Source: Turnera subulata (lineage: Eukaryota > Streptophyta > Magnoliopsida > Malpighiales > Passifloraceae). Taken from it: a stretch of DNA of 64,000 bases. The notes beneath the pieces are model-generated. The model saw only the letters and a program-made list of their open reading frames with translations, did no database searches and had not been told where the DNA came from. Shown in pieces: positions 39,301 through 64,000 of the stretch. The position numbers and the translations under genes were made by a program. The stretch is taken from the NCBI GenBank assembly GCA_028386065.3, contig JAKUCV010001447.1:10503-74502 (forward strand), given 5' to 3'. The first letter of the stretch is position 1; every line of letters begins with the position of its first letter.

Positions 39301-40012
39301 GCTTTGGCCCCCAGTTTCGACTCTCTTGAGCAAGAATTATCGGACAATGATCCGAGCATCCCTTAGGTTCCGCCCATAGCTTGATTGAAGGGAACAAAGA
39401 GAACCAAGAGGGGTCGAAGAAAGCCCTGTCAATTTTGCTGGCTGTCCAAGAATTCCCCCAAGTAAATTCCCTTCCATGAAGTTCAACCTCACATAATGCA
39501 GCATCTGCGATAAATTGGGCCAAAGCATTAGCCCCCCGTACATTAATTCTCCCACTCAATCTCTCATTCCCCTGTAGAATTTCGTTGAAGTCTCCTATGA
39601 CCAGCCATGGTAGATTCGACCCCCTGACCATCCCTCCTAACTCTTCCCATATGCTAATTCTATCCTCTACAGAACTCGGCCCATACACGCCGCAAATGCC
39701 AACCTCAATGGAACCATTTATCGTACCCTCAACCATTATCCAACTGCTTCCACGCAATCTCCTACTAACTTTGAAGTAATTCTCATCCCATAATAATACA
39801 ATGCCGCCCGAGTTTCCATTCGCATCCACACTCACATAATCGAAAGGACCCCTATTCCAAATTCTAGCGAAATCACCATGCCTCCATCCACTACATTTAG
39901 TTTCACACAACAATACAATTCTCGCATTCACCCTAATCATCAGTTCTTTAATAGCTCTATGTTTTTGGGTAGAGCCAAGACCCCTGATATTCCAAGAAGC
40001 CAAACTAAACAT
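36312..40012 (-). pseudogene. LINE-2 ORF2: endonuclease and reverse transcriptase
   Basis: Begins at ATG 40012. Endonuclease: WNIRG, E37, GDFN (140-143), SDH (220-222). RT follows, with KAPGPDGFN, a QHAFIEGRQ block, the catalytic FADD and a PYLGLAIG block. The frame is lost by a single-base indel near 37560, just before RNFLWGG; the second part (37541-36312) continues through zf-RVT (CAFCKERIETRDHLLIHC) to IVV and the stop. Apart from this lesion the reading frame is complete. ORF2 overlaps the end of ORF1 by about 70 nt. Confidence 0.9.
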
Positions 40013-41869
40013 GAAGAATAAAAACGCACGACCCCCCCAGGTAATAATTTCTTCATTTTCTTGGCCTTCTTACACTTGCAGCACTTCTTCGACCCTGCAT
40101 TTTTTAATAAAGCACGAAAATGCCTTCCCAGCACCTCCAAGGATATCTCGGTTTGCTCCTCCTCATCCGGCATCGTTTTCTCATTTCGAACATCACTCCC
40201 ATTAATAATATCTCTGGACCCCAACTCCACTAAGTGGTCCAACTCATTTACACAGACCTTACTCCTTACATCTGTTTGTACCAAACCCAGCCTACACTCC
40301 ATTTCAGACCCGGGCCTGGACTCAACTTGGCCCAGTCCACTTCTTGTATACTTCGCTTTTTGGATACCCTCTTCATAACCTCTTCCTAACTTATCACCCC
40401 CCTTCAACCCTCCCCCCATCAACCCTTCTCGATCCCCCCGCCTGCGCAGCCGACAAGATCGAACCGCGAGGCGAATGTCCCACCTGCCCAACCTCAAAAG
40501 GCTCCTCCTCAACCTCAAAAGGCTCCTCCTCATTACTACCCCTCCGATGAATTTGCCTACCAACCACCACGCTTTTGTCCTTTCCACCCTTCAAAGCACT
40601 TTTCCCCATCTCAAGATTTTTAATGGTATCGAGTATCCTAAATGGATCATCAGACCCATCAGATTTCCCTCCATTAATATCTTTGCTAGTCGGTGCCTTG
40701 GAAACCGAATCCTCCAAAGGTTGGTTTGCCCAATCACTAGTCATCTTCATCCCTCCAACCCCGTCGTCGAACACCGTCACCGGAGGTTGCGCCTCCACCA
40801 CATATATGTCAAAAAATTTCGCCCCAATCTTCACATGGAAGGAGCGATCAATAGGGCACTTATATGTAGATCGAACTAACACTTTTGCAACGTCCAGATA
40901 ATTACTGGTCTCCAACCTATTCTGACTACGGATAAATATTCCAAAGCGCATAGCTATAAGGTGGAAAAAATCATCACACCAAGCTTCCGGAGGAACCCCA
41001 TGAATGTTTAACCAACACTCCCTATGTGCTGCACCATCACCTTCCTTCCATTCTCTTAAATACTCAAAATGCTCATTACACCAGTCAACATCATGTTTAA
41101 GACAAGACAACATAGCTTCCTTTGATTGAAAGGTTAAGAGGACATATTGACCCCCTAGTCTCTTAACATCCATAACGGCATTTGACAGGTTAGCAGAATT
41201 CATCAGGATTTGAAGTTCATTAACCCCTTCTTTCATGATTCCAAAAGCACACTCCTTAAGCAGCTTTATGCTTTCCTCTGTGGGGTTGTACTCAATTGAT
41301 ATTGATTTATTATCCTGCTCCCTATGCTGAACATCCTTTTCTAGCACTATTTCGGCCACCGTCTGGGCAAAGGATTGCCCTGCCTTCACTCTATATTCTG
41401 GAAGCACCCAATCAACAGCATGATCAGATTTGCTAACCCCAGGCAGCTTGGGCCCTCCCCTTTGTTTCGCAGTTTTAGCAACTAACATGCCGTTAATACT
41501 TTTGGACCTATTAATCTTCTCAATCATCACCTCTGCCCTCTCCTTACAATCAAAGCGCACAAAGCAAAAGCGGCTTCCAACAGCTCGCAGCTTCCCCGGT
41601 ATAAACACTTCAATGACACTCCCCACCTTCAACATCTCCTTAAACATATCAGCAGCGGACCATCCATTTGGGATATTATCCACAAAGATACTCACCACTC
41701 TATTATTCTCAATCGCCCTCAGTACCTCCCTCCTCGTCCATCGTGAGAAAGACGACGGGATAAGAACATCTTTGTTCTGACCAAGTTCATTCCCTATTCT
41801 GCCTCTCCTAATTTGAAAATTTTTTGGCGCGTGAGGCGCGTTCATTCTATTCCTACCCTGAACGTCCAT
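39940..41869 (-). pseudogene. LINE-2 ORF1 with RNA-recognition motif
   Basis: Starts at ATG 41869. Residues about 58-135 form an RRM: RNP2-like IFVDNI (61-66) and RNP1-like RFCFVRF (100-106). A central DUF4283-like region includes WLNIHGVPPEAW. The frame ends at 40394 after 491 codons, but coding-like sequence continues in another frame to 39940 with basic, cysteine-containing text (CCKCKKAKKMKK), so a frameshift near a C run at about 40430 probably separates the two. ORF1 binds LINE RNA and accompanies it to the target. Confidence 0.85.
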
Positions 41870-41903
41870 TAAATTTGCTAGTGTCTTAAATATACCAAGA
41901 CTT

Positions 41904-42454
41904 AAAGGTATTATTCAGTGTGCGAAAACTGAGGAGGCTCAATTGGTACTAACCAGTTACAAAAGACCTCTCAAATTTTCTATAATAATCTTAGTGCAAA
42001 CTGTGGAGCCAAAAATTGTTGCCCACTCTTTTGCGATTAAGTTTCTTAGTGTATCAAGTATTGAAATTTCGTAAATTATTGTTAATGTCTATTGTAAGTG
42101 TTGTACTAATTATGAGTATGAAATGAAAATATTTATATTTATGAAAAAAAAATGTTTGTGAGTCTTCTCGTGAAAACAAAAAAAAAAGGTACTTGTGACT
42201 CTGCATATTGTTGTCCTCTGATGAGAAAGATAAGCTTTGAAATAAACCGTTCATATTCTCAGAATCTTATGAAACTCATGAGTCATGATGACATCACATC
42301 ACATCACAATAAATAAATAAATGTTTCCTATATCTTGTAAATTGTAAACAACACTTTCACTGTTGTATTATAAATCCCACTTATATGTGTTGAGTCAATT
42401 ATTTTTTTTGGTAAAATGAGTCAATTAATTTGAGCATAGTATATATTGTCACGG
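41904..42454. other. non-coding DNA
   Basis: AT-rich spacer with a short CATCACATCACATCACA / AATAAATAAATAAATG microsatellite at about 42292-42322. No gene. Confidence 0.5.
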
Positions 42455-45092
42455 GCAGTGGTGTATGGATCCGGGTCAGGTGGAGAAGTAAGCAGCAGCC
42501 AACGAACACCGTACCTGAACTACGATCAATCAAACCTACGGGATGAAACCCAGCAGGCGAGGGGTGAGTCCGAAGCGCTCACCGACGAAAGATAAATAGT
42601 GATATATTCAACCATAATGCTTTCGAAGTAAACACAACAATCATAACATTAAGCTCAAACATTCACAACACAAGAAAATTACCATAACAACTATACCAAG
42701 TCCAATGAATCCTTAATTATTTTTATTACCAATTTTATCTTCCGGGCCCCGTCACTGGACAAGCTAGGGTCGTACCTGGTTATTAACTAATTCTGGATGC
42801 CAGGCCCCACCACAATCTGGGATCAACATCCCATATCACAAATCCGGGATCAACATCCCAATATCTCAAATCCGGGATCAACATCCCAATATCACAAATC
42901 TGGGATCAACATCCCAATATCACAAATCCGGGGTCAACACCCCAACCAACTAACCCTCTGGCCATGACACCACAGAACTAGTCTCTAACCATATAGTCGT
43001 ACCACTACTTTCCAAGTGACAAATATATCATCATCTCAATTTCCAGTTCGATCCATTACTCTTTCATCAATTTTCCCATTTCTATTATCTCTGATTAATT
43101 CCACAGACTCAATCTCTTATCTCAAACTCATGACACAAATTATTCAAAATTAACAGCTCGCATTAATTCCAACACGTTATACACAAATCTATCACAATCC
43201 AACGACGGCATCAATAATTCCATAGCAATCAGGTAACAGACAATAATTATTCCAGCGGAACAATCTAGCAGCAAAATACGCAAACAAAGAAACACACACA
43301 GCATTACGGGCACATATCAAGGTTTATCTATCCTCACCTTAGCCGATATCAAGTTTGGAACTGTCCAACTGACTCCAAGTCCGGCTCCTCAGGTATCAGC
43401 TCGTTATCAACTCCTATATCAAACAAATAATATGCACATATAAGATGGTATGCTCATGCTTGACTATTACTATAATCCGTAAAAAGAAATAACTAACGCG
43501 TTAACTCGGTACTTCCTCGGGTTATTCCATTATCATCGTCGTTCACCATTTATCAGTGTCTAGAGTAATACTTACTCATGCGTATTCCCATACAATACCT
43601 ACTTTGATATTATCCTTTCCTCTTTTCCTACAAATATGTACTTTCTAAAATATCTGTTAAAAATAATTATTATTTACCATCTACATATTTCCACAATAAA
43701 TATTCCTCATATGGTATACCTTATATTTCCAAAATTATTAATTACTATTACTATTACGATTATTATTATTTCTTTGATTATCTCCTCAATTTAGTTATCC
43801 TACTATTGCTTATCACATTTATATTCTCCTAGAACACTATTTATTCCCAAATTATATCTATTTAATTTCTAATATATTACTTACCTAAACTATATCCCTT
43901 TATATATATTTTTTCCAATTATTTCTTTTTTTCCAGAATTTTGAATCTATTCCAAAAATATATTTTCCCTTTTTTTTTAATGGACTGGACCCAGAAGCTA
44001 AGCCCAACCCTGGAACTCAACCCAGCAGGTCAGCCTAGGCCCAAACGCGGAGCCCAGACCGAACCCGCGGGTCTGCAGCCCAGGGCGGGTCCTAAGCCCA
44101 GGCCCAGCCCCAAGATTCGCCCGGGTTGACCTACGCGAGGTCGGGTCTTGCCCACACAAGGCGGGTCTCTCACCTTCGATCCGGATCCTTGCGAGTTCGA
44201 CGGCAGACGAGGCGACGGCGCGAGAACAAAGGCTCGGTCGGCGTCGCGGCGAACGCAGGTGGTGCAGGCGACCTCGAGGGGACGCGGGGAGGCGTCGTCG
44301 TCGGCCCACTGCGGTGAAAAGGACGCGGGTGACGGCGGTCCAAACGGAGCAGCCGTCGGGTCCTTGGCTTCCTCCGACGCGTCGTGCGGCAAGGGCGGCC
44401 GACGATAGTTTCCCCAAGTCGGCGGCTGAGTGGAGATTGCGTCGGGGAGGGTGGTGGAGCGAGAGGTGGCTCGGCACTCCTTCCCGTGAACAGTGGCGAG
44501 GGGAAGGTTGAAGAGGAAGGTGATGGGTTGGCGTGGGTTGTTGCAAAACGGCGTAGTTTTGCAGGTGTATAGGTGTTTGTTGTCTTTTTTTTTTCCTTTT
44601 CTTGGTTTGATTTTGAGAAGAAGGAAAAGATATGTATTTGGGCGGTGAATTGCAGTGGAAAATTGCAGGGAATGAATGATGCGTGTGAGGAAGAAAACAG
44701 GGGAGAGGTAGGTTTTAACGAGGTACATCACAGACAGAACTTCACGTGCCCACAGGAAGCAAGTCACAGACTTCACAGTAAGGGCATCTTCACTATGCTG
44801 AATTACTGTACACTGTCTGGACCAGAAAATATCCGACATACCCACTTATTACTTTTCTGGTCCGTTGACTCGAGGATGAACCCGGCCTTCCTGAAGATTC
44901 CTGGACCCGAAAAATTCCAACTTTGGTCCGTAAAATCCGCAGAAAAATCCCGAGCGTGGGACATGGCTCGGTTTCGGATTCCGATGCATAATTTACCCTG
45001 AAATAATTACCCATGATTATTTTTATTTGGAAAATTACTGTACAAAGTGTTTTTACAGTCCCGGTAAAATGTAAATTTTTACCCGGGCTGTT
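42455..45092 (-). repeat. 3' LTR of Tekay element B, outer and inner edges damaged
   Basis: Matches the element's other LTR from GCAG(T/C)GGTGTATGG. The first about 240 bp (present at 49815-50056) are missing. It has five GGGATCAACATCCC-type hairpins (about 42826-42945), an exon-2-like segment (43413-43338 on the minus strand), a splice donor CGAAG|GTGAG (exon end 44174) and a GC-rich stretch at 44000-44470. At its inner side GGGCTGTT jumps straight to pol sequence at 45093, so the polypurine tract is deleted. Confidence 0.85.
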
Positions 45093-48000
45093 CGCATGTG
45101 CTCCTCAACTTCCCATGTAGACTCGTTTGCAGAGTGCTTGGTCCACTTGACCTTTACCATGGGAATGACTCGGCTCCTCAACTGTTTGGCCTCTCTGGCA
45201 AGAATCTGCTCCGGCATCTCTGTATATGTAAGATCTTCTGCGACCTCAACATCTGCGGTAGTAACCACATGACTAGGATCGGATCTGTACCTCCTCAGCA
45301 AGGAAACATGAAACACATCATGAATCCGGGACAACTCCTCTGGTTAGGATAGTCTGTATGCCAAGGGTCCGACCCTTTCCACAATCTCATAGGGTCCAAT
45401 GTACCTGGGACTCAGCTTCCCTCTTTTCCCGATTCTGATAACACCTTTCCACGGTGCAATTCGGAGGAAAACTCGTTCTCCCACTTGGTACTCCGTCTCC
45501 CGGCGATGCTTGTCAGCATAGCTCTTCTGTCGATCCTGTGCCGCTCTCATACTCTGCTTAACCTCCTGAATCTTGTCAACAATCTGCTTAACCAAATCTG
45601 GTCCCACAATCAAACGGAGACCTTCTTCATCCCAACATACTGGACTTCGGCATTTCCTTCCGTAAAGAGCTTCAAACGGTGGCATGCCAATGCTGGAATG
45701 AAAACTGTTGTTGTAGGCAAACTCTGCTAAGGACAAATACTGATCCAAACTCCCACTGAAATTAAGAGCACAAGCCCTCAACATGTCCTCTAGCGTCTGA
45801 ATAGTCCTCTCAGACTGTCCATCAGTCTGAGGATGAAATGCAATACTGAAGCTCAACTTCGTCCCCAAAGCTGCTTGCAGACTCTTCCAGAACCGTGATG
45901 TGAATCTCGGATCTCTGTCTGAGACTATGGACTTAGGAATCCCATGTAGTCTCACAATCTCTGCAACATACTGTTTCGCCAGCTTATCCAAAGTATCTGT
46001 CTGACGAATGGGAAGAAAATGAGCTGATTTTGTAAGTCGGTCAACGATAACCCAGATGGCATCACGCTGTCTCCGGGTCAACGGTAATCCAACCACAAAA
46101 TCCATGGTAATCATCCCCCACTTCCACTCTGGCACTGACAAAGATCTCATCTTCCCTGCTGGAGCCTGATGCTCGGCTTTCACTTGCTGACAAGTGATAC
46201 ACTTAGCCACATACTCGGCTACATCCTTCTTCATACGTGGCCACCAAAAATGACTCCTCAAATTCTGGTACATCTTAGTGCTTCCAGGGTGCATAGCATA
46301 CGGCGTCATATGTCCCTCTTCCAGAATCTGACTGCGTAGGTCACCAACACTGGGTACGCATAAACATTTCCCCAGCATCAATGCACTATCCTCGGCTATG
46401 CGAAACTTGTCTTCTTTCCCACTACGGACTGCTTCCTTCAGCTTTATCAGGTTGGGATCTCCATCTTGCAATTCCACAATCCAGCCTTTCAGGTTAGACT
46501 TAACTTCAATATGGGTCAGCAAAGCTCCTATCTCATCAACTAACAAATCAACTCCCATCTTCCTTAACTCGATGAGTGAAGACATCAAGTAAGTCGTGGA
46601 AGCATCTTCTGGCTGTCTCCGACTCAAAGCATCTGCTACAATATTAGCTTTTCCAGGGTGATACTCAATAGTACAATCATAATCATTCAGCAACTCAACC
46701 CAACGTCGTTGTCGTAGGTTAAGTTCCTTCTGAGTCATGATGTACTTGAGACTCTTATGATCTGTGAAGATCCGGCATCTTTCTCCAAACAAATAATGTC
46801 GCCAAATCTTCAAAGCAAGGATCACTGCAGCCATCTCCAGATCATGTGTCGGGTAGTTCTTCTCATGCGGTCTCAACTGCCTCGAAGCATAGGCAATCAC
46901 TCGGCCTTCTTGCATCAGAACTGCTCCCAAACCAAGACCTGAAGCATCACAAAACAGCACATACTCTACCCCTGGCTTAGGTACTGTCAAGACTGGTGCT
47001 GTTGTCAACTTCTTCTTCAACTCATCAAAACTCTTCTGGCAGGCATCACTCCATACAAAGGCTTGATCCTTCCTCAATAGCTTGGTCATGGGACTGGCTA
47101 TCCAGGAAAAACCCTCAATGAATCTCCGGTAATATCCTGCAAGGCCAAGAAAACTCCTGACTTCGGATACTATTTTGGGCGGCTCCCACTCCAAAACAGC
47201 CTTCACTTTAGTAGGGTCAACCTTGATCCCATCCCCGGATACAACATGTCCAAGGAATGCAACTTCCTCAAGCCAGAACTCACACTTGCTGAACTTAGCA
47301 TACAACTCCTTCTCTCGCAGCCTCTGTAGTACTACCCTCAGGAGCTCCTCATGTTCTTCCCTGCTCTTGGAATAGATCAAGATGTCGTCGATGAAGACTA
47401 CTATGAACTTATCCAGGAACTCATTCAAGATCAAGTGCATCAAGCACATGAAAACTGCAGGTGCATTGGTCAAGCCGAAAGGAACCACTGTGAACTCAAA
47501 ATGCCCATACCGAGTACGGAAAGCCGTCTTCGGTATGTTCTTCTCTGCAATCCTGACCTGATGGTAGCCAGATCGAAGATCAATCTTAGAGAACACTGTA
47601 GCTCCCTGTAGCTGATCAAAGAGGTCATCAATCCTGGGAAGCGGATACTTGTTCTTCACTGTCACCTTGTTCAGCTGTCGGTAGTCCACACACATGCGCA
47701 AACTACCATCCTTCTTCTTCACAAAGAGGACTGGTGATCCCCAAGGTGATGTACTAGGTCTGATGAAACCCTTCTCAAGCAACTCATCCAACTGCTTCTT
47801 CAATTCCTGGAGCTCTGTCGGTGCCATCCGATATGGTGCCATCGAGATAGGTGTCACTCTTGGCATCAAATCGATGGTATACTCGACTTCCCTGTCAGGT
47901 GGCAGTCCTGACAGATCCTCTGAAAACACATCTGGGAACTCCCTCACAACTAGGATGTCCCCCAAAACTGGAGCCTGAACTTCTTCACCTTTGACATGGG

Positions 48001-49687
48001 TCAACAAAGCATCTGGGTCCAACGGCTTCATCCCCACGTCCTGATGAGCAGAGATGCTACATGTAGCAGCAGCTCTCCCAATACCTGTCAACAAGATCTT
48101 ATGTCCAGCTTCGGTAGTCAACAGCACTTCCTTGGTGCGACAGTTCACCATGGCACTGTACTTGGACAACCAATCCATCCCCAAGATGATATCAAAACCT
48201 CCCATATTCATCACAATCAACCGTGCAAGAAAAATCTCGCTATTGTATGAAAGCGAAACATCTCTGCACACATGGGTTAATCTGACTACTATACCCGCAG
48301 GTAACCTAACCCTCATCGGACAAGCTAAACTCTCTCCCATACAGTTATGTAGTATTGCAAAGCTCTGAGAAATAAATGAATGTGTGGCACCAGAGTCTAT
48401 CAATGTATAAGCAGTACTACCAAAAACTATAAAGGTACCTGCTATAACATCTGCATTCTCTGGATCCTCCTCAGCGGTGATCACAAATGCTCTCGGCACT
48501 GATGTACTCTGGTTCATGGCTGACTGGGTCCTAGTAGGAACAACTCCACGTCCTCGGCCTCGGCTAACTCCAGAACCACTGGGAACACTAGCAACTGAAG
48601 CTTGCACCGTCTGAACAGGTGCTGAACCTCCAGATCTCCCCAACTTGGGACAATCATAACGATAGTGCCCAACTTCGTTGCACTCATAGCACCTCACCTG
48701 AGACAGAAGAGGTCTCGGGCGAGCACTCCAGGATGAAGTCCCTCCAGACTGAGTCCAAGATCTGCCTCGGTTGTTATAGTTGTTATTCCATCCACGTCCC
48801 TGACTCCCTGGTATGAACCGGCTCTGTCCGTGTCCTGACCGGTTCGCTGGTGTCTGGAACCTCTTGTTCTGTACCCCAGAACTCTGTGCAGCATGCCTCT
48901 TACGGATCTCCTACTGCTCTCTCTCATTGCCTAGCCAGATAATCTCGGCTCTCAGGGCATCTGTCAGCATATCCTGGTAAGTCTCGTAGACCTTGCACCC
49001 CATAACTGTCTGGATACCAGATCGAAGACCATCCCAGAAACGTTTGCATCTGGCCTTCGGAGTAGCTACAAACTCACTGGCATAGATGGACAAGCAGTTG
49101 AACTTGACCGCATAGTCATTGACCGACTGATCTGGTCCCTGTTGCAGTCCCAGAAACTCCCGTCTCAACTAGTCCCGGTATGCCTCGAAAACAAACTTCC
49201 TCCGGAACATCTCCATGAACTGGGTCCATGGCATAGTGATGGGTGTCGGCATGTCCCTGGTGGTAGACTCCCACCAATCAACAGCATCTCCTCGGAACAT
49301 GGCGGCGGCATATCTGGCCCACCTGTCGTCCCGGCATGTCAGCTTCAGCATAACCCTGTTTGTCTGCCTGAGCCATCGATCTGCATCCTGTGGTGTAGTG
49401 ACACCGGTGAAGATCTCGGCCCCAAGCTTCTCCAGCTTCATGTACACTGGATCCTCAACTGGTCCCTGGTTCTCCTGCTCTCGAGCTTCCATAGCTGCGA
49501 TACGAGCATCTCTGGCATCTTGCCTTCACAGAATCTGAGTGACCACATTCAACATCTGCGTAGGATCTCCCATAGGAACATTCGGAAGTTGTTCTGGACC
49601 TCCCGCAACTTGCTGCGGTTGATCCACCGATACTTGATCATCATCTAAGTGACCTCCAGCTTGCTGATTTCCTCCAACCGGATCCAT
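45093..49687 (-). pseudogene. Tekay-type (chromovirus) gag-pol of element B
   Basis: One frame from ATG 49687 to about 45093, broken by four in-frame stops: TGA 49526-49528, TAG 49169-49171, TAG 48911-48913 and TAA 45344-45346. Gag (WWESTTRDMP region) ends in a CCHC knuckle ([14 protein letters not shown], about 48691-48650). Then come protease (DSGATHSF), reverse transcriptase (FIDDILIYS), RNase H ([17 protein letters not shown]), integrase (HPGSTKMY zinc finger, [14 protein letters not shown]) with a GPY/F module, and a chromodomain-like tail ending WEVEEHMR. The single-frame polyprotein and terminal chromodomain indicate the Tekay/Del group of Ty3/gypsy. The long pol part (48697-45347) is uninterrupted, so decay is recent. 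Confidence 0.95.
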
Positions 49688-49800
49688 TCGTACCTATATG
49701 AGAATGTATATGTATGCATGTCATATCATGTCGTGACAAATCTTATGCACAAACAAACAATCACGCAACCACAGTTATGTCCCTAATGACCTACTGCCTA

Positions 49801-49811
49801 CTCCGCTACCA
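49801..49811 (-). other. primer binding site of element B
   Basis: Minus-strand TGGTAGCGGAG, three bases inside the 5' LTR end at 49815. The same 11 bases occur at the primer sites of elements C and D, of the second TRIM unit and of Cassandra. Confidence 0.8.
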
Positions 49812-49814
49812 AAC

Positions 49815-51340
49815 TGAAGCGCCCCGACCCGTATTTACCGTACAGGGTAAACACGTGCCGGAACTGTTTTTACTACAGTAGTAGACAGAACATACAATGT
49901 AGAATACATCACACGCAATCCTCAAATACAATATTCGTCACCCGATCTCGGGGACCATTATTCAATCCATTACACACCAATCTAATCAACAACAAATATA
50001 ATACAGCAACAACAGCAATATCACAATAGAAAGACAAGCAGCGGAAGACTAGAATGCAGATGCAGCGGTGTATGGATCCGGGTCAGGTGGAGAAGTAAGC
50101 AGCAGCCAACGAACACCGTACCTGAACTACGATCAACCAAACCTACGGGATGAAACCCCGCAGGCGAGGGGTGAGTCCAAAGCGCTCACCGACGAAAGAT
50201 AAACAGTGATATATTCAACCATAATACTTTCGAAGTAAACACAACAATCATAACATTAAGCTCATACGTTCACAACACAAGAAAATTACCATAACAACTA
50301 TACCAAGTCCAATGAATGCTTAATTATTTTTATTACCAATTTTATCTTCTGGGCCCCGTCACTGGACAAGCTAGGGTCGTACCTGGTTATTAACTAATTC
50401 TGGATGCCAGGCCCCACCACAATCCGGGATCAACATCCCATATCACAAATCCGAAATCAACATCCCAATATCTCAAATCCGGGATCAACATCCCAATATC
50501 ACAAATCCAGGATCAACATCCCAATATCACAAATCCGGGGTCAACACCCCAACCAACTAACCCTCTGGCCATGACACCACAGAACTAGTCTCTAACCATC
50601 TAGTCGTACCACTACTTTCCAAGTGACAAATATATCATCATCTTAATTTCCAGTTCGATCAATTACTCTTTCATCAATTCCCAATTCTATTATCTCTGAT
50701 TAATTCCACAGACTCAATCTCTTATCTCAAACTCATGACACAAATTATTCAAAATTAACAGCTCAGCATTAATTCCAACACGTTATACACAAATCTATCA
50801 CAATCCAACGACGGAATCAATAATTCCATTGCAATCAAGTAACAGACAATAATTATTTCAGCAGAACAATCTAGCAGCAAAATACGCAAACAAAGAAACA
50901 CACACAACATTACGGGCACATATCAAGGTTTATCTATCCTCACCTTGGCCGATTACTCAACTTCGGAAACAATGACCGGTCCGACGCCGGCTCCTCGGGA
51001 AACTGCCCGATATCCAAACCTATCCAACACAACAACATATACACATAAATGCACACAATCGGTATGCTATGATGCCAACACTACGATATTACCCATCCCG
51101 GTTCTTATCCGTTATTATTATCTTTTACCGAAAATAATTAACCGTACGTACTTCCGAATATAATTTCGGTACCATACTTTAATTAAAATTCTTTTCAAAT
51201 TATTTTCGTAAATAATTATAATTCTCTAGAATTATAACCTCCATAATTTTCTGAAAAAGATAACTTATGTATATGTATATTTCTAAAATATTACTTTTTT
51301 TTAATAAAACTATTTATCATAATATAATTACCAATTTTTC
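49815..51340 (-). repeat. 5' LTR of element B, chimeric
   Basis: From TGAAGCGCCCCGACCC to about 50940 it matches the element's other LTR almost base for base, including the hairpin array (about 50424-50540). From about 50941 to 51340 it instead matches the LTR of element C (57955 onward: CACCTTGGCCGATTACTCAA, GGTCCGACGCCGGCTCCTCG). An exon-2-like segment lies at 51019-50944. The LTR then breaks off in AT-rich sequence. Confidence 0.8.
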
Positions 51341-53704: not shown

Positions 53705-54621
53705 TTTATGACTCACATGACACTGTATGCGACACATGCAAACTATGGATCCGAGCCCCGTCCAAGGGATAACGCTGCAGCCTGTCTAGAATGCACCAAA
53801 CCTGTATATGAAACAACTCATCCTGCGAGCTGCCGTCACCCGCGTCCTTTCCACCGTAGTGGGACGACGACGACGCCTCCCCGCGTCCCCTCGAGGTCGC
53901 CTGCACCACCTGCGTTCGCCGCGACGCCGACCGAGCCTTTGTTCTCGCGCCGCCGCCTCGTCTGCCGTCGAACTCGCGAGGATCCGGATCGAAGGTGAGA
54001 GACCCGCCTTGTGTGGGCAAGACCCGACCTCACGAGGCGGCGGCGCGTCTCTCACCTTCGACCCGACCTCTCTTCTTTTTTCTGACTTTCTTATTTTCTG
54101 TTTTTTTCCCTTTTTCTTTCATTTTTCTTTTCCACTTTTTTTTTTATTTCTTCCTCTCTCTGTTTCTTTTTTTTCTCTATTTTCAGTTTTTTTTCTTTTT
54201 CTTTTTCTTTTTTTTCTCTTTTCTTTCTTTTTTTCTTTCTTTCTCTTTTTTTTTCTCTTCTCTTCTGCCTTTTCCCGGTTCTGCCTCCTTCATTATATAA
54301 TTGAATATTTACTATTAGTCTTGTGAACCAATAATAAAATTCGTCCGCATTACGGGCGAATCCGATCCGGACCAGAAAATAACAGATACCTCCTTAGTTA
54401 TTTTCCGGTGTGATTTTCCGAGAAATTCCGAAACCCGAAAAATACCAACTTAGTTCCGAAAAATCCACGAAAAAATCACGAGCGCGGGAAAACACTCGGA
54501 TTCGGAAAACGACTCCCGATTTACCTTGAATTAATTACCCAAGAATAATTCAACAGTAAATCACGGTAAAAAGACTTTTACAGTCCGGTAAAAATCCAAA
54601 ATTTTTACCCGGGCTGTTACA
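53705..54621 (-). repeat. 3' LTR of element C, deleted and partly inverted
   Basis: 53705-53826 matches the inner U5 part of the element's other LTR (57215-57340). 53829-54035 is a GC-rich segment in reverse orientation compared with its counterpart at about 44134-44330. 54057-54621 is the pyrimidine tract and U3 end, terminating GGGCTGTTACA. A polypurine-type sequence (minus-strand CTTTTTAAGGTGGGTAGTC) follows inside at 54622-54640. Confidence 0.8.
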
Positions 54622-54765
54622 GACTACCCACCTTAAAAAGAATTTCGTCCCCGAAATTCCGTCTTATCTGTGGGTCCTACCACGATAAGATTCTGGCACA
54701 CTATGCCAGGTATCCAACCTTAACATGAGATACCGCTTATACCCTTAAGCGACATCTCATCCGCT

Positions 54766-54773
54766 TATAAATA
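54766..54773 (+). promoter_or_regulatory. TATA box of antisense gene a (element C)
   Basis: TATAAATA, 36 bp before the ATG at 54809, with AGTCATGGACTC around the start codon. Confidence 0.55.
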
Positions 54774-54808: not shown

Positions 54809-55186
54809 ATGGACTCTCCACACCGATCCCGAACAACCTCTGACTCCGAGAACAACAGCTACATCGGTGGCACAGCTTTCCCAACAAGCTCCGATGATGA
54901 ACCTCCAAAGAAACGGTTCAAAACCAACATCATCGGCCTGAAGGAGCACATGGTCGTTTCCCCAAAAGGACAGAAGAAGCGTGCCGGCAAGAAAACTGAA
55001 GATCGCAAGGGCAAGGCGGTCGCTGAGAGCAGCACTCCGCTGCAAAAGCTGACGCAGCTGAACTTCTCGCTGAAGAAGATCAGCTCGGCGGTGGCGCAAA
55101 TCGAACTGGCGTGCGCGGAACTGTTCCCACACATGCAAAATGTAAAACAACTTGTAAAAGACCTAGAGAAGCAAGTAACTCCATAG
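54809..55186 (+). CDS. antisense protein a of element C: basic, coiled-coil-like
   Basis: A 125-residue protein of unknown function, on the strand opposite to the element's own orientation. It has a serine-rich N-terminus, an acidic patch then a basic cluster (DDEPPKKRFK, about 30-39; KGQKKRAGKKTEDRKGK, about 53-69) resembling nuclear signals, and a C-terminal helix-prone segment with hydrophobic heptad spacing (LTQLNFSLKKISSAVAQIEL). It has its own TATA box, and AATAAATAAAATAA follows at about 55221, a plausible polyadenylation region. The end of the same gene is present in element D (63840-64000), where most differences are synonymous. It could be a small nuclear or RNA-binding accessory protein; this is inference. 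Confidence 0.6.
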   Translation: MDSPHRSRTTSDSENNSYIGGTAFPTSSDDEPPKKRFKTNIIGLKEHMVVSPKGQKKRAGKKTEDRKGKAVAESSTPLQKLTQLNFSLKKISSAVAQIELACAELFPHMQNVKQLVKDLEKQVTP

Positions 55187-56006
55187 AGAGTACTTCTTCT
55201 CCTGTTGTAAACCTTTTATGAAATAAATAAAATAATTTCCTTTTAAATCAAAAATTCTTGTGTTATGAAATCTCTTGTTCAATGGAAAATAAAACATCTC
55301 AAAGTAAAATAAAACTCAACTATAAGAATATAAAATCCAATATAAAGAAATCATAAATTAAAACTCGTTTAACAAAACTAAAACAAAAAGAAATTAAAAC
55401 CAAAACATATTTTCATGAACGGTGCTCGTATCGGACGTGAACATCCACGAACCCATGAAACGTAACGTACAATTAACGGTGACGTCCGTTAACCTCGCAA
55501 GGTGATGATCACGAGCACGTCCTGTGTCCCTCGAAAGACACGTTACCCTCTTGTCCACAAATTCCGCATGAGCCAAAACGTCTGTCAGGGCTCGTATCTC
55601 TCCATGATGTCCAAACAGCTGTGAATTCGTCGCACATGCACTCTACTCGAGGTACGGTCCCATCCGTCTAGCCTCAACGGTCACGAATGCATGTGATAAA
55701 AGATGCAAGAAAAGATAATAAGACCGTAGAAAGAAAAGACAAGGTAGCCAGAGCGAAAAAAATTATGAGTTAGGAAAAGCTTGAAAAACTCTGGCATGGG
55801 TCCGGAAAACGCGTAAATTGACAAAGCATTAAATACAACAACGATAAAATTCAAAAAGCAAATCTTAAAAATTGAAAACAATAAACACGCTCCCCATAGG
55901 TGTATAAAAGAAGGAGCGGTGATGTGTAAATTATCAAAAGCATTAAAGCAACAAAACCATTCTGAAAAACAAAAACGTAACGCTCCGAAAACAAAATACC
56001 CACACG
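55187..56006. other. spacer between the antisense genes
   Basis: Contains gene b's TATA box at 55903-55910. On the minus strand a 112-codon hydrophobic frame (56019-55681) overlaps gene b's leader and first codons; it is also open in element D (63038-63373) with a one-codon indel, but changes look evenly spread over codon positions, so I do not call it a gene. Confidence 0.5.
55903..55910 (+). promoter_or_regulatory. TATA box of antisense gene b (element C)
   Basis: TATAAAAG, about 100 bp before the ATG at 56007. Conserved in element D on the minus strand at 63154-63147. Confidence 0.6.
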
Positions 56007-56690
56007 ATGCCTGCTCCATCTTCCGTTTTCTTCGTCGAAGGTGCCAACCTTGGCAGGAGAAACCGTCTGGCGTACAGCATGGTCAACGAACGTGCTGAAG
56101 AGCTACCGAACGAGCTCGGCAGGATGCCCCGACTGGTCTTCGTCGACGAGCTCTACTCATCGCGGTTCTTCGTCACTCCAATGGAAGAGGTGTTCTTCCT
56201 AGAGGACCATGGAACACTGAGGACATCCTACTACGGATCGGCAAACTCCGTGATGTTCTTCATCTCCGAGAGGCTGCAGGAGTTCAACCTGGAGTCCACT
56301 TGCCAGACTGTGGAGCAGGGCGCCTACTACCAGCTCTCGATGACAGCCCAGAGCATGCCCAGAATGACTCGGCTACCTCCAACTTGGCCAAAGGCACGAC
56401 TGCTGGTGTGGAACTGCAGAGGAGTTGCAAGGCGTGCCCAGGAGTTCTCACGCACCCTGAGGGACTTGAAGAACCAATACAAACCGAACATGGTTCTTCT
56501 CACGGAGACGCAGTGGCAACCTCGAGACGATCACGGTCTCATCCCACTCCGGTTCCCTCAAGCTAACCGATTCGAGATTCCTGGCCAGAGAGACAGAGGC
56601 GGCATGTGGTTCTCGTGGAGCGACAGAGTCACGGTCAACATCAACAGCGACCCAAACAGCTTCCGTGTCAACGTCGTTCCGAATCGTTAA
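56007..56690 (+). CDS. antisense protein b of element C: unknown domain plus partial LINE-type endonuclease
   Basis: 227 residues. Residues 1-128 match nothing I recognise; they contain RMPRLVFVDELYSSRFF and an FFLEDHG segment. Residues 131-223 resemble the beginning of an APE/EEP endonuclease as in plant LINEs: RLLVWNCRG (131-139, with the metal-site Asn), NMVLLTETQ (161-169, with the catalytic Glu), and GGMWFSWSD (198-206), parallel to GGLALLWK of LINE-1. The later catalytic motifs (GDFN, SDH) are absent, so the protein is probably not an active nuclease. Element D has the same gene; across the first 169 codons I count about 35 synonymous and only 5 amino-acid differences. TATA at 55903. 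Opposite in direction to its host element, so it is transcribed separately. Confidence 0.7.
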   Translation: MPAPSSVFFVEGANLGRRNRLAYSMVNERAEELPNELGRMPRLVFVDELYSSRFFVTPMEEVFFLEDHGTLRTSYYGSANSVMFFISERLQEFNLESTCQTVEQGAYYQLSMTAQSMPRMTRLPPTWPKARLLVWNCRGVARRAQEFSRTLRDLKNQYKPNMVLLTETQWQPRDDHGLIPLRFPQANRFEIPGQRDRGGMWFSWSDRVTVNINSDPNSFRVNVVPNR

Positions 56691-57009
56691 ATGTATTCTA
56701 TTTTTTATAAAATATCAAAATCTATGTAATATTTCCCTTTTTATAAAATATCAATGTAATATTTCTGTTTGTACTCAAAATATTAATATTTCCCTTTGTA
56801 TTATCAGTATTTGCAATATTAATAATATTTGTATTTCCGCTTATCATGGCATCATTTACCTCATATGTGTATGTTCCACGACAGCTGGCGTCCCTTGACT
56901 GGATCCATAATGCACTAACTAAAATGATATAAAATAATAAACAAAAGGAGCGAACTATGCAAACAAGACAACAACACACATAGACTGCCCGACAAGACCT
57001 AACGTCCGC

Positions 57010-57020
57010 TCCGCTACCAA
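57010..57020 (-). other. primer binding site of element C
   Basis: Minus-strand TTGGTAGCGGA, with the run continuing TTGGTAGCGGAGCGGAC; it lies just inside the LTR end at 57023. Confidence 0.75.
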
Positions 57021-57022
57021 AA

Positions 57023-59380
57023 TGAGACGCCCCGACCCGTATTTACCGAACACAGTAAACACGAGCCGGAACTGTGACAACCCAACCAAATAAACCCATG
57101 CATACAGTGTGAACAATAATAACTCAGGCCCAACGGCCCAAAACAGTAAACAACATAAATAACATATCCGGCCCAATGGCCCAATAATAGCGAAAACATG
57201 CACAGCGGAAGACTTATAAAGACTCACATATACACTGTATGCATAAATGCAAACTATGGATCCAAGCCCGTCCAAGGGATAACGCTGCAGCCTGTCTGGA
57301 ATGCACCAAACCTGTACATGAAACAACTCATCCTACGGGATGAAAGCCCGCAGGTGAGGGGTGAGTCCGAAGTGCTCACGACAATGGAAAGACCATCAAT
57401 ATGGACACTAAAGTTACTCAAGGCCAAAAACAATCAAAAACCGACCAAAAGACTCAACAAAATCCAATTATCCAATTTTATCTTTCCGGGCCCCGTCACG
57501 GATAAGCTAGGGTCGTACCAGGTTATCAACCTGTTCCTGGTGCCAGATCAAAAAGAACCCAGGGATAGACATCCCAAAAATAACAAACCGGGATAGACAT
57601 CCCAAGCATAGACATGCTTATCACACGAACCCAGATCATGGCCACCACAAAACAGTCTCTAACCATCCGGTCGTACCTCTACTTACCACGTGACAATTAT
57701 ATCATCATTAAAACAAACCGTAGGGATCGACATCCCTAACCAAAATCCCGAGGATCGACATCCTCATCACAATTCATTATTAATCCATTATTACTTAATC
57801 CAAAAGACACAGAAATTCGATACGGGGATAAACATCCCAAAAATACCAAACAAGCACCGGGATAGACATCCCGAGCCAAAACACAACAAAAGCACAGCAT
57901 CCAACAATGCAACAACACCAAACACAATAACCGAGTAATAAGGCACATATTGAAGGAAATCCATCCTCACCTTGGCCGATTACTCAACTCCGGAAAACAA
58001 TGACCGGTCCGACGCCGGCTCCTCGGGAAACTGCCCGATATCAAACCTATACACAAAACCATATATTCACATAAATGCACATAATCGGTATACTATCATG
58101 CCAATACTACGATATTACCCATCCCGGTTCTTATCTGTTATTATTTCCATTTATCGAAAATATTTAACCAAACGTATTTCCGAATATAATTTCGGTACTA
58201 TACTTCAGTTAAAACTCTTTTCAAAATATTTTCATAAAATAATTATAATCTTCCAAAATAATAATCATCATAATTTTTTCCAGAAAATAACAACCTATTA
58301 ATAATTTTCAGAAAATATTTATCTAGTATTTATCTTTTTCTCTATATAATAATATTTCTAACACAAAATATAATTACTTTAATTTCCAAAATACATATTT
58401 ACATACATATAATAAAATCATAATTTTCCAGACGAAATAATATATATATTAAATTTACAGAAATTATTTTCAAGTTACATATATATTTTTTTCCAATTTA
58501 ATAATAGTTTCCAAAACAAAACTTAATTATTTAACCAAGTAAATATATTTATATTTTAACAAAAATACCAGACTTAAATTGGCATTAATTTACTCAAAAT
58601 AACTATATATTTTTTTCAAAATTGAATATCAGATTATGTTTAAATAAATATATACACAAATATAGTTTTTTTTAATTAACGGACTAGGTCGTGAATAGTG
58701 TCGGCCCAGACCCAAGGCAGCAGGCCCGAAGCACAGGCCTGCGCCCAGGACCCGGCCCAACACTATACAGCCCATTCAACAACAAACCCAACCCACTGAC
58801 GGCGACCCGTTTCCACGAACGGATCCAAGCGAGATTCCGGGTCTTACCTCCGGGTTGTGGCAGCTGGCGACGACGGCGAGGCGCGAGGAAGGAGAGCAAC
58901 CACACCAACGGCTGCGGCGGACGAAGGGCGGCGAGATGGAGGCGGCAAACTGGGCGCGGCGGCGTCGGCAGCTATGCAGGAGGCGGAAGAAGCAGATCCA
59001 TGGGTCTGCCGTCGGGTCTGCAGCGCGTCAGGGCGGCTCCGGCGACGGAATGACTCGGGGCCGGTGGGGGTGTGCTCGCGACGTGACGGCGAAGGCGGTG
59101 GCGGCGTTGGTGCAGCGAGACTCGGCGGGGATCGGCGGCGAGTGAACAGTGATGGAGGCGTGGGGTGACAAACTGTTCAAAATCCGTTTTCCCCATTTTT
59201 CATATTTTCTCTCTTTTTCTCTTCTTTTTCTCTTCTTTTTTCTGACTTTCTTATTTTCTGTTTCTTTTTTTTTTCCTTTTTCTTTCATTTTTCTTTCCCT
59301 CTTTTTTTTTCTTTCTTCCTCTCTCTGTTTCTTTTTTTTTCTCTATTTTCAGTTTTTTTTTCTTTTTCTTTCTTTTTTTC
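57023..59380 (-). repeat. 5' LTR of element C, U3 end missing
   Basis: From TGAGACGCCCCGACCC at 57023. Contains the GGTGAG...CTCAC stem region near 57358, hairpins at 57552-57605 and a second set at 57721-57738, 57750-57765, 57825-57838 and 57858-57873, exon-2-like segment 58046-57971, donor GAG|GTAAGA (exon end 58848), a GC-rich stretch 58690-59160 and a pyrimidine tract 59205-59380. The last about 500 bp of U3 are absent because element D begins here. Confidence 0.82.
57721..57873. repeat. hairpin array in LTR C
   Basis: Four short inverted repeats with compensatory stem changes: TAGGGATCGACATCCCTA (57721-57738), GAGGATCGACATCCTC (57750-57765), GGGATAAACATCCC (57825-57838) and CGGGATAGACATCCCG (57858-57873). 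The loop is always 4 nt. Confidence 0.8.
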
Positions 59381-62021
59381 TCTAACAGCCCGGGTAAAAT
59401 TTTGGATTTTTACCGGACTGTAGAAGTCGTTTTATCGTGATTTACTGTTGAATTAATCTTGGATAATTAATTCAAGGTAAATCGGGAGTCGTCTTTTGAA
59501 ACCGAGGGTTTTCCCGCGCTCGTGATTTTTCCGTGAATTTTTCGGACCTAAATTGGTATTTTTTGGGCTTCGGAATTTCTCGGAAAATCACACCAGAAAA
59601 TAACTAAGGAGGTATCAGTTATTTTCTGGTCCGGATCGGACCCGCGTGCATTATTGTTAATCACATGATTAACAGTAAATTCACAGTTATATAATGAAGA
59701 GGAACGCAGCAGAGGAGAAGAAAGAAACAAGAGAGGAAGAAGAGAAGGAAAAAAGAAAAGAGAGAAAAAGAAAAAGAGAGAAAAAAGAAGAAAAGAGGAA
59801 AAAAAGGAAAAGAAAATAGAAAAAAATAATAAAAAGGAAGAAATTACAGAAAATGAAAAAAAAAAACCCGGTAGCACTGTTCACCACCACCCCTCGTTAC
59901 TGTACACTCGCCGCCGTTCCCCGCCGCAGATCGACGCACCGCCGCCACCAGCAGGTAGCCCACGACGTCGCAACCTCACCCCTGTCCGTCCCGTCGCGTT
60001 CCACCGCCTGCAGCTCCCTGACGCGCCGACAACCCGGAGGAAACCCACGGATCTGTGTTCCTCCGCCTCTTGCGCCTTCTGCCGTCGCCGCCGCGTCCTC
60101 CCTGCCGCTGTTCCGGAGTCGCCTCCACCTCGCCGGCCTCGCGACGCCTTCCCTCACGTTGCCGCGTCGTCGACCGCCGTCCCTAAGGTAAGATCCGATT
60201 CGCCTGGGCGGGTTGCGACCGGGTCGCGCCTCCCTGGGCCGGGTTGACGGGTTGGTTCGTTTTATTTTTTTTAAAATATATATATATATATATATACATG
60301 TATATCTAATTTGCTGTTAATTATTTGGAAAAAATATATATTTTTATATTTCGAAAAATATGGTAATCTGTGTTATGGTTTATGGTTTTGAAATATATAT
60401 ACTTTGAAAAATAATTAAGATGTGTTTTGGAAAAACTAGTATTACTTGGAAAGTATATGTGTAACTTGAAATTAATTTCTGTAAATTTAATATGCATATT
60501 ATTTCGTCTGGAAAATTATTATTTTGGTATATGTATATAAATATGTATTTTGTAAATTAAAAGTAATTATGTTTTGTGTTGGAAAATTAAATTGTATATG
60601 TATTTAGAAAAGATAAATACTATTTATATTTTCTGAAAATTATAAATAGGTTATTATTTTTCTGGAAAAATTATAATGATTATTATTTTGGGGAATTATA
60701 GTTATTTTATGTAAATATATTTTGAAAAAGAGTTTTAACTAAAGTATGTTACCGAAATTATATTCGGATATACGTATGGTTAAATATTTTCGATAAATGG
60801 AAATAATAAGGGATAAGTAATCGGGATGGGATTAATTCGTAATATTGGCATCATAGTATACCGAATATGTGCATTTATGTGTATGTATGATTTTGTTGTA
60901 TAGGTTTTTGGATATCGGGCAGTTTCTCGAGGAGTCGGCGTCGTACCGGACATTATTTTCCGAAGTTGAGTAATCGGCCAAGGTGAGGATGGATTTCCTT
61001 CAATATGTGCCTATATTACTCGGTTATTGTGTTTGGTGTTATTGCATTGTTGGATGTTGTGGTTTAGCTGTGTTTGGGTTCGGGATGTTTATCCCGGTGT
61101 TCTGTTTGGTTTTTGGGATGTTTATCCCGTGTTCATTTTCTGTGTTTTTTTTTCGGATTAAGAGTAATGGTATAATTAATGAATTGTGACAAGGATGTCG
61201 ATCCTTGGTATTTTGGATGAGATGTCTATCCCGGTATTTTGGTTAGGGATGTCGATCCCTGTGACTTGGTTTTTGACGACGATTATATAATTGTCACGTG
61301 GTAAGTAGAGGTACGACCGGATGGTTAGAGACTGTTTTGTGGTGGCCATGATCTGGGTTCGTGTGATAAGCATGTCTATGCTTGGGATGTCTATCCCGGT
61401 TTATTATTTTTGGGATGTCTATCCCGGTTTGTTATTTTTGGGATGTCTATCCCTGGGTTCTTTTTTATCTGGCACCAGGAACAGGTTGATAACCTGGTAC
61501 GACCCTAGCTTATCCGTGACGGGGCCCGGAAAGATAAAATTGGATAATTGGTTTTTATTGAGTCTTTTTGGACTTGGACCGATTTTGGGTCGGGTCATTT
61601 GGTTTGACTGTTATTTTTGACTTGAGTAATTTTTAGTTGCATATTGATTGTCTCTCCTTCGTCGGTGAGCACTTCGGACTCACCCCTCAATTGCGGGCTT
61701 TCATCCCGTAGGATGAGTTGTTACATGTACAGGTTGGGTGCATTCCAAACAGGCTGCTGCGTTATCCCTTGGACAGGGCTCGGATCCATAATTTGCATTT
61801 GTGTCGCATACAGTGTCATGTGAGTTTTAAAGTCTTTCGCTGTGCATATTATTATTGTTGTTGGGCCATTGGGCCGGTTTTGTCATTTATGATGTTTTTA
61901 TTATGGGCTGTTGAGCCCGGATATTTGTTGTGTACACTGTATGCTGGTCTTATCTTTGTTGGGTTGTTACAGTTCCGGCTTGTGTTTACTGTGTACGGTA
62001 AATACGGATCGGGGCGTTTCA
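59381..62021 (+). repeat. 5' LTR of element D (complete)
   Basis: 2641 bp from TCTAACAGCCCGGG (TG changed to TC) to GGGGCGTTTCA. TATA-like TTATATAATG near 59689-59698, then a purine-rich tract, a GC-rich exon-like segment ending CTAAG|GTAAGA (60187), an AT-rich stretch, TATAG|G at 60903, a 79-nt segment 60904-60982 ending CCAAG|GTGAGG, hairpins at about 61085-61450 (including CAAGGATGTCGATCCTTG at 61190-61207) and an acceptor-like TGTACAG|G at 61732. Confidence 0.85.
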
Positions 62022-62024
62022 TTT

Positions 62025-62036
62025 TGGTAGCGGAGC
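62025..62036 (+). other. primer binding site of element D
   Basis: TGGTAGCGGAGC, three bases after the LTR end. Confidence 0.78.
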
Positions 62037-62366
62037 GGACGTTAGGTCTTGTTGGGAAGTCCTTATGTGTTGTTGTTGTCTTGTTTGCATAGTTCGCTCC
62101 AGTTGTTTATTATTTTATATCATTTTAGTTAAGTGCATTATGGATCCAGTCAAGGGACGCCAGCTGTCGCGGAACATACGCATATGAGGTAATGATGCCA
62201 TAAATAAGCGAAATTACAAATATTATTAATGATTCTGATATTTTGAGTACAAAGGGAAATAATAATATTTTGATTACAAACCGAAATAATACATTGATAT
62301 TTTATATTTTATAAAAAGGGAAATAATACATTGATTTTTGATAAATTATAAAAAATAGAAATACAT

Positions 62367-63050
62367 TTAACGATTTGGAACGACGTTGACACGGAAACTG
62401 TTTGGGTCGTTGTTGACGTTGACCGTGACTCTGTCGCTCCAAGAGAACCACATGTCGCCCCTGTTCTGTTGGCCTGGAATCTCGAACCGGTTAGCTTGAG
62501 GGAACCGGAGTGGGATCAGACCGTGATCGTCTCGTGGTTGTCACTGTGTCTCCGTCAGAAGAACCATGTTCGGCTTATATTGGTTCTTCAGGTCCCTCAG
62601 AGTGCGTGAGAACTCCTGAGCACGCCTTGCTACTCCTCTGCAGTTCCACACCAGTAGTCGCGCCTTTGGCCAGGTTGGAGGTAGCCGAGTCATTCTGGGC
62701 ATGCTCTGAGCCGTCATCGAGAGTTGGTAGTAGGCGCCTTGCTCCACAGTTTGGCAAGTGGACTCCAGGTTGAACTCCTGTAGCCTTTCGGAGATGAAGA
62801 ACATCACTGAGTTTGCCGAGCCGTAGAAGGATGTCCTCAGAGTGCCGTGGTCCTCTAGGAAGAACACCTCTTCCATGGGAGTGATGAAGAACCATGACGA
62901 GTAGAGTTCGTCGACGAAGACTAGGCGTGGCATTCTTCCGAGCTCGTTTGGTAGCTCCTCTGGACGTTCGTTGACCATGCTGTACGCCATACGGTTTCTC
63001 CTGCCAAGGTTGGCACCTTCGACGAAGAAAACGGAAGATGGAGCAGGCAT
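62367..63050 (-). pseudogene. antisense protein b of element D, one in-frame stop
   Basis: Same length as the element C copy (684 nt). TGA replaces Trp170, leaving a 169-residue open part that ends just after the endonuclease-like NMVLLTETQ motif; the remainder stays in frame to the TAA at 62367-62369. Amino-acid differences from copy C in the open part: L21M, A30P, R53W, V56I, Y75F. After the stop, replacements become relatively more frequent (about 5 against 9 synonymous in 57 codons). TATA box at 63154-63147. The truncated product could still be made. Confidence 0.8.
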
Positions 63051-63839
63051 CGTGTGGGTATTTTGTTTTTGGAGCGTTGCGTTTTTGTTTTTCAGAATGG
63101 TTTTGTTGCTTTAATGCTTTTGATAATTTACACATCACCGCTCCTTCTTTTATACATCTATGGGGAGCGTGTTTATTGTTTTCGATTTTCAAGATTTGCT
63201 TTTTGAATTTTACCGTTGTTGTATTTAATGCTTTGTCAATTTACGCATTTTCCGGACCCATGCCAGAGTTTTTCAAGCTTTTCCTAACTCATGATTTTCT
63301 TTCTGGCTACCTTGTCTTTTGTTTTTATGGTCTTTCTATATTTTCTTGCATCTTTTATCACTTGCATCCGTGACCGTTGAGGCCAGATGGATGGGACCAC
63401 ACCTCGAGTAGAGTGCATGTGCGACGAGTTCACAGCTGTTTGGGCATCGTGGAGAGATACGAGACGAGGCAGATGTTTTTGGCTTATGCGGAATTTTTGA
63501 ACAAGTGGGTAACGTGTCTTTCGAGGGACACAGAACGTTCCCGTGATCACCGCTGTGCGAGTTACGTTTCTTGGTTCGAGGGTGTTTTCGTCCGATACGA
63601 GCACCGTTCATGAAACATATTTTGTTTTAATTTCTTTTCGTTTTGAATTTGTTAAACGAGTTTGTTTTTAATTTTCTTTATATTTGATTTTATATATTCT
63701 TATAGTTGATTTTCTTTTGCTTTGAGATGTTTTATTTTTCCATTTAACATAAGACTTGATAACATAAGAATTTTTGATTTAAAAGGAAATTTATTTATTA
63801 ATTTCATAATAAGGTTTACAACAGGAGAAGAAGTACTCT

Positions 63840-64000
63840 CTATGGAGTTACTTGCTTCTCTAGGTCTTTTACAAGCTGTTTTACATTTTCCATGTGTGGA
63901 AACAGTTCCGCACACGCTAGTTCTATTTGCGCCACCGCCGAGCTGATCTTCTTCAGGGAGAAGTTCAGTTGTGTCAGCTTCTTTTGCGGAGTGCTGCTCT
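63840..64000 (-). CDS. antisense protein a of element D, C-terminal part
   Basis: Last about 53 codons of the gene seen complete at 54809-55186, ending KDLEKQVTP and TAG at 63840-63842. Compared with copy C: about 8 synonymous and 3 replacement differences. The start lies outside the window, so intactness is unknown. Confidence 0.6.
   Translation of the reverse strand, partial: SSTPQKKLTQLNFSLKKISSAVAQIELACAELFPHMENVKQLVKDLEKQVTP

Follow-up and report, generated by a model that had tools for sequence, protein, structure and literature searches.

Coding constraint on an antisense gene of Tekay-related retrotransposons lacking detectable gag-pol in Turnera subulata

Long terminal repeat (LTR) retrotransposons that lack gag-pol are usually regarded as parasites that need cis signals only. 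Coding constraint in such elements, if true, would mean that they contribute proteins, and it raises the question of whether these proteins help the helper, help only the elements themselves or oppose host silencing. The question arises at the right end of a stretch of Turnera subulata DNA of 64,000 nt (contig JAKUCV010001447.1, positions 10,503–74,502 of the forward strand; hereafter the window), where two LTR elements, C on the minus strand and D on the plus strand, lie in opposite orientation. A preliminary description had taken both as Tekay-related elements without gag-pol, each carrying two genes, a and b, on the strand opposite to the element. We find that gene b is under coding constraint, with chance excluded as an explanation, and that C is a non-autonomous element without detectable gag-pol. 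The evidence further suggests that gene a is constrained and that D likewise lacks gag-pol.

Evidence for selection on the two antisense genes

The genes and their TATA-like boxes are as follows.

54809–55186, plus strand: gene a of C, antisense to the element; 125 amino acids, with a basic N-terminal part predicted to be unstructured and a predicted long C-terminal helix
63843–63998 (63840–64000 with the stop codon), minus strand: C-terminal 52 codons of gene a of D; the remainder lies outside the window
56007–56690, plus strand: gene b of C, antisense to the element; 227 amino acids, with an acidic N-terminal part and a basic, endonuclease/exonuclease/phosphatase-like C-terminal part
62367–63050, minus strand: gene b of D, open for 169 codons (62541–63050 with the stop codon); the same frame is recognisable past the stop to codon 227
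54766–54771, plus strand: TATA-like box of gene a of C, 43 bases before the ATG
55903–55908, plus strand: TATA-like box of gene b of C, 104 bases before the ATG
63154, minus strand: TATA-like box of gene b of D, 104 bases before the ATG

Gene b is thus conserved as an antisense open reading frame (ORF) in 2/2 copies, one of them interrupted, and gene a in one whole and one partial copy. The earlier picture of two genes per element, each with its own TATA box and ATG, stands for C; in D it extends to gene b, together with only the last 52 codons of gene a, whose promoter in this copy lies beyond the window.

The by-eye count of 35 synonymous against 5 replacement differences between C and D in the first 169 codons of gene b was reproduced exactly by a recount. 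Over all 227 codons, there are 45.5 silent and 11.5 replacement differences (path-averaged, with the stop codon of D counted as a replacement), which correspond to a silent divergence (dS) of 0.372, a replacement divergence (dN) of 0.022 and a dN/dS of 0.060 (bootstrap interval 0.026–0.106), far from 1 in a comparison of two copies. Third codon positions hold 45 of the 57 differences. To account for base composition and methylation context, the 57 differences were redealt in 20,000 rounds among sites matched for base and for CG, CHG or CHH context. With C as the reference, 11 replacements are seen against 40.8 ± 3.1 expected, and with D as the reference 12 against 42.4; none of the 20,000 shuffles matched the observed deficit with either reference, which bears out the purifying selection proposed for this gene.

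The deficit extends past the stop codon of D. In codons 170–227, with the stop counted, 6 of the 17 differences are replacements with C as the reference (13.6 expected; 0 of 20,000 shuffles), and 7 of 17 with D as the reference (13.2 expected; 7 of 20,000). Because this downstream part is also constrained, the stop probably arose late, after most of the divergence between C and D had accumulated. Gene b also contains no insertion or deletion in 684 bases, as compared with 18 events in 1115 aligned noncoding positions; the internal noncoding rate predicts 11.0 events, with a Poisson P of 1.6e-5 for none. The 52-codon tail of gene a shows 10 silent and 3 replacement differences. Shuffles matched by base only give 8.7 and 9.5 expected replacements among these 13 differences (4 and 1 of 20,000 rounds, respectively).

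Mutational bias might mimic such constraint if methylated CG and CHG sites changed preferentially in a gene rich in G and C at third positions, and gene b is indeed richer in G+C than the internal noncoding flanks (54.7% versus 34.4%). However, the context-matched shuffles, which hold exactly this bias constant, still expect about 41 replacements, and the missing indels are independent evidence, so that this explanation retains a negligible probability. For gene b, the shuffles rule out mutational bias as the source of the silent excess.

No deficit of replacements was found by the shuffle comparison in frames +2, +3, −1 and −3 of gene b. Frame −2 has 19 replacements versus 39.4 expected (0 of 4000 shuffles), because it shares third positions with gene b. 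The ORF list contains no ATG-started ORF of at least 60 amino acids on the opposite strand inside gene b.

Structure and gag-pol content of elements C and D

The two elements, together with the neighbouring element B, are delimited by the following features.

57023–59378, minus strand: 5´ LTR of C, truncated at the U3 end where D starts
54111–54623, minus strand: U3 start of the 3´ LTR of C, the LTR being rearranged further left
59379–62021, plus strand: 5´ LTR of D
57008–57019, minus strand: primer binding site of C, TGGTAGCGGAGC
62025–62036, plus strand: primer binding site of D, TGGTAGCGGAGC
54624–54672, minus strand: polypurine-tract end of the internal region of C, 86% identical to the Tekay-like element A over 50 columns
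45089–49815, minus strand: internal region of element B, a chromovirus that matches protease, reverse transcriptase, RNase H and integrase and, past a stop codon, a chromodomain; not intact

Because the 5´ LTR of C loses its U3 end where D begins, D was probably inserted into this LTR. The rearranged 3´ LTR of C (53705–54623) consists of LTR positions 1–486, a stretch common with 44134–44336 (inverted, 97%) and LTR positions 2329–2453.

The LTRs of C and D end in GGGGCGTYTCA, with the boundary set by eye, as the type A U5 att rule of Del/Tekay elements demands. The TG start of the LTR is present in C, and D has TC there. The primer binding site is matched by B at 11 of 12 bases and differs at two positions from the tRNA-Met primer binding site. 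Tekay (Del) LTRs are described as TG...CA with a type A U5 att and GGG at −8 to −10 (PMC4029996), and a tRNA-Met primer binding site as present in most chromoviruses (PMC6317226). The leaders of C and D share 68% and 67% identity with that of B over 63 columns (E 0.002). These LTR ends, primer binding sites and leaders, the polypurine tract and the adjoining chromodomain element support the assignment of C and D as Tekay-related.

In B, the reverse transcriptase, RNase H and integrase zinc-binding domains score above their Pfam cut-offs and the protease is matched too. The integrase core falls below its cut-off (29.6 versus 32.6 bits) and the Chromo match behind the stop codon just equals its own threshold (25.1 bits). 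An element of this kind is the likely helper of C and D, as judged from the shared signals, though B itself is not intact.

No convincing gag-pol match was found across the whole internal region of C by blastn against A and B or by tblastn with the frames of B. The blastn comparison recovered the ends at the polypurine tract and at the leader, along with short matches; the strongest of these short ones covers 26 bases of A (E 0.018). Seven frames of at least 60 amino acids, all from B, served as tblastn queries against C and D and gave a best E of 0.05. C keeps LTRs, primer binding site and polypurine tract, despite the rearranged 3´ LTR, without detectable gag or pol. In this respect the preliminary description holds for C, the entire internal region of which lies in the window, and for D up to position 64000, where the window ends. 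The polypurine tract and 3´ LTR of D and the region beyond its gene a lie outside. The 1979 bases of its internal region within the window align throughout to C at 89%, with no convincing gag-pol match from primer binding site to gene a and no match in the window besides C of at least 50 bases at E 1e-4.

Predicted proteins and a reading of the locus

The gene a protein has a pI of 9.7. Single-sequence AlphaFold2 prediction leaves residues 1–76 without structure (pLDDT, the model's per-residue confidence, 53–71 in blocks to residue 80) and forms one helix from residue 77 to 123 (pLDDT 94–97 in blocks 81–120 and 82 in the last). Apart from a leading proline, hydrophobic residues occupy two heptad positions of this helix over 47 residues, and the modelled helix is a probable coiled coil. 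Pfam adds three sub-threshold matches (best E 0.025), which fall in N-terminal or coiled-coil segments of tethering-complex proteins and are consistent with this. Basic clusters in the protein resemble nuclear signals by eye.

The gene b protein is acidic in residues 1–125 (pI 5.0), for which no relatives were found, and basic in its last 102 residues (pI 11.3). Its residues 133–214 align at 30% identity (tblastn within the window, E 2.8e-4) to the endonuclease of a long interspersed nuclear element (LINE) at 29115–29351. The window holds two LINE-like elements with long frames (28325–33097 and 36312–41914), both of which were used in this comparison. The last part of the protein scores above 1000 of 1000 self-shuffles against the first LINE and above 997 of 1000 against the second; for the N-terminal part, 572 and 974 of 1000 shuffles, respectively, reach its score. 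The comparison suggests that the C-terminus of gene b likely descends from a LINE-type endonuclease. A complete endonuclease/exonuclease/phosphatase catalytic domain is not present: the match to the corresponding profile, PF03372, covers positions 2–86 of 225 and leaves just 14 residues before the C-terminus. Since the second half of the domain is missing, catalysis is unlikely. A search against solved structures returned one chance-level match (E 0.32).

The reading we favour, at a probability of about 0.43, is that C and D belong to a satellite-like family that lacks gag-pol, depends on Tekay-type machinery and carries two selected antisense proteins that aid its own copying. The machinery of Tekay elements of the kind of B would be borrowed through common LTR ends, primer binding site and polypurine tract, and the two genes on the opposite strand would be expressed from their own promoters. 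Selection would have maintained the proteins, most likely since they raise the element's own copying. Gene a would encode a small basic, coiled-coil nuclear protein and gene b a protein that binds nucleic acid without catalysis and derives from the front portion of a LINE-type endonuclease domain. Our best guess for both is a nuclear accessory role, presumably in trans, either keeping the family expressed or helping its nucleoprotein; the preliminary description had proposed action in trans for RNA handling, integration or host evasion. A stronger version appears unlikely: a long-lived Tekay-type family without gag-pol whose two selected antisense proteins act in trans, one of them a binding module from a former LINE endonuclease, for example in anti-silencing for the family or its helper.

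Several observations weigh against the satellite reading. Only two copies, C and D, were compared, gene b is interrupted by a stop codon in one of them, and D is seen only up to gene a, so that its remaining part towards the 3´ LTR may hold gag-pol. The PF03372 match of the whole gene b protein of C reaches E 0.015 (15.5 bits) and that of its C-terminal piece, cut after the whole-protein match had been seen, E 0.0022 (18.2 bits), both below the gathering cut-off of 24.5 bits; neither the 169-residue protein of D nor its two pieces match any Pfam profile. The AlphaFold2 model of gene b, made from the alignment of the two copies, is unusable (mean pLDDT 31). Finally, fourfold sites of gene b diverge at 27% (29/106), which is two- to threefold more than the flanks (98/1115 internal noncoding positions, 8.8%; 209/1579 compared LTR positions, 13.2%). 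Recombination may have given gene b an older history than its surroundings, so that the time spent in non-autonomous form is uncertain.

Divergence is patchy elsewhere as well, with identity per 150-base window ranging from 68% to 98% in the aligned LTR (57150–58649), and the mosaic could alternatively mean constraint on the flanks. On the coding strand, the differences in gene b are lopsided (29 A/G versus 9 C/T), and those of the internal noncoding sequence are even (26 and 26).

The constraint cannot be assigned with certainty to the form without gag-pol, and a gag-pol-bearing ancestor or relative may have borne it. It is quite possible that C, and perhaps D, are deletion derivatives of an autonomous Tekay family with antisense genes, that selection acted there and that the copies without gag-pol are passengers. 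The excess silent divergence of gene b is what recombination with other lineages would produce, one of the two copies is broken and the far side of D lies beyond the window. Plant elements with gag-pol, such as Grande and RIRE2, can carry additional antisense ORFs (PMC7264820), and some Retand clusters keep theirs despite losing some gag-pol domains (PMC11963269). However, C retains no convincing trace of gag-pol and D aligns with it from primer binding site to gene a without one, and A and B are unmatched to the internal region of D and share with that of C only end and short matches.

Constraint on RNA or DNA, such as on an antisense regulator transcript or a promoter, with the reading frames incidental, would account for one further feature.

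55757–56081, plus strand: low-divergence block that spans the gene b promoter and leader together with codons 1–25; 10 of its 325 bases differ, the block having been chosen after seeing the profile

Within it, positions 55901–56006, approximately from TATA box to ATG, have 2 differences in 106 as compared with 96 in 1009 for other internal noncoding positions (Fisher P 0.006), and codons 1–25 have no third-position difference, with a post hoc chance of 0.002 at the rate of the rest of the gene. The differences in the remainder of gene b, in contrast, are strongly three-periodic and mostly silent, a pattern that such constraint does not give, and we regard this explanation as very improbable for the gene. 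A hydrophobic ORF on the sense strand of the element covers the promoter of gene b and the initial codons in both copies (55681–56019, minus strand, 112 amino acids; 63038–63373, plus strand, 111 amino acids). It has 9 silent and 8 replacement differences overall; its first 263 bases, with 7 silent and 2 replacement differences (175 of 20,000 shuffles), look constrained, and the remainder does not.

Host genes captured by the element, with constraint from a host function of the copies or of the parent gene, would explain the presence of their own TATA boxes and a G+C content at third codon positions of 0.62–0.70, higher than the 0.40–0.55 of four other measured coding regions of the window. 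Among about 5.8 billion proteins, many plants included, neither gene a nor gene b has a relative at E 1 or better (83 and 5 candidates), and both copies occupy an equivalent position in elements of one kind, which is most simply explained by a split inside the element. Capture from the host is thus improbable. In the same search, a control protein from the window, encoded by a DREB2-type gene (13778–14806), found 2953 relatives at E 0.001, of which the best 120 listed are plants as far as named. Transposon genes are often omitted from protein sets, so the lack of relatives is no evidence for a family restricted to this plant. Scans of viral and prokaryote contigs, made for gene b only and each seeded by two short peptides, found no relative of it.

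The control gene matches plant DREB2 proteins, which identifies the window as plant DNA. One Turnera subulata relative, 96% identical over 35% of the query, is named "pectin acetylesterase" in one source. A run of N lies at about 21022–21987, and the long ORFs that span it are artefacts.

If the satellite reading is correct, the two small proteins offer a handle on the role of antisense genes in plant retrotransposons. The weight of the finding depends on a genome-wide tally of copies.

Comparison with known systems

Large retrotransposon derivatives (LARDs) have long LTRs and cis signals without gag-pol and to our knowledge are described as lacking coding function; C and D resemble them in the former respects and differ in the latter. 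Among the literature matches listed, which leave most subscription papers uncovered, there was neither a gag-pol-less Tekay relative with selected antisense genes nor one with such an endonuclease fragment. Gene b itself resembles the front part of the ORF2 endonuclease of plant L1 LINEs, whose later catalytic motifs it lacks.

Extra ORFs of at least 250 codons, forward and reverse, have been collected from 3372 Ty3/gypsy elements (PMC6317226), a threshold that genes a and b do not reach. The non-autonomous TelKA2n family of bdelloid rotifers keeps an env-like ORF, and the ORFs studied there are reported not to deviate significantly from neutrality (PMC5408684). An orchid Ty3/gypsy element with an ORF for an AlkB-type RNA demethylase, tested in vitro, has likewise gained and kept an extra protein that acts on nucleic acid; it differs in being Ogre-like, in having Gag and Pol and in the catalytic activity of its domain (PMC9289625).

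Within the Tekay lineage, a 5´ additional ORF is described in sunflower, maize, sorghum and rice, and is kept in 500 of 523 sunflower elements; its protein combines nuclear signals, disordered parts and helices (PMC11728184). As described, these ORFs are set apart from genes a and b by lying upstream of gag-pol in elements that have it, and the sunflower one is a sense ORF. Antisense extra ORFs occur in gag-pol-bearing plant LTR retrotransposons, and that of Grande is driven by a separate promoter and encodes a nuclear protein (PMC7264820). As in C and D, the genes run antisense to the element in maize Grande (gene23), rice RIRE2, Silene Retand and bean PvRetro13.

Retand comes closest as a precedent for defective elements with antisense genes: all its surveyed clusters have antisense potential coding regions, and some clusters are non-autonomous and without some gag-pol domains (PMC11963269). 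The loss in these clusters affects some domains rather than all of gag-pol; their lineage lies outside the chromoviruses, and 97% encode TRP28 (PF04195). C and D, unlike Retand, are Tekay-like, show no gag-pol where seen and carry two genes, neither of which has a Pfam match to TRP28. Antisense accessory genes are thus of a known kind, and the setting and content of those described here look new.

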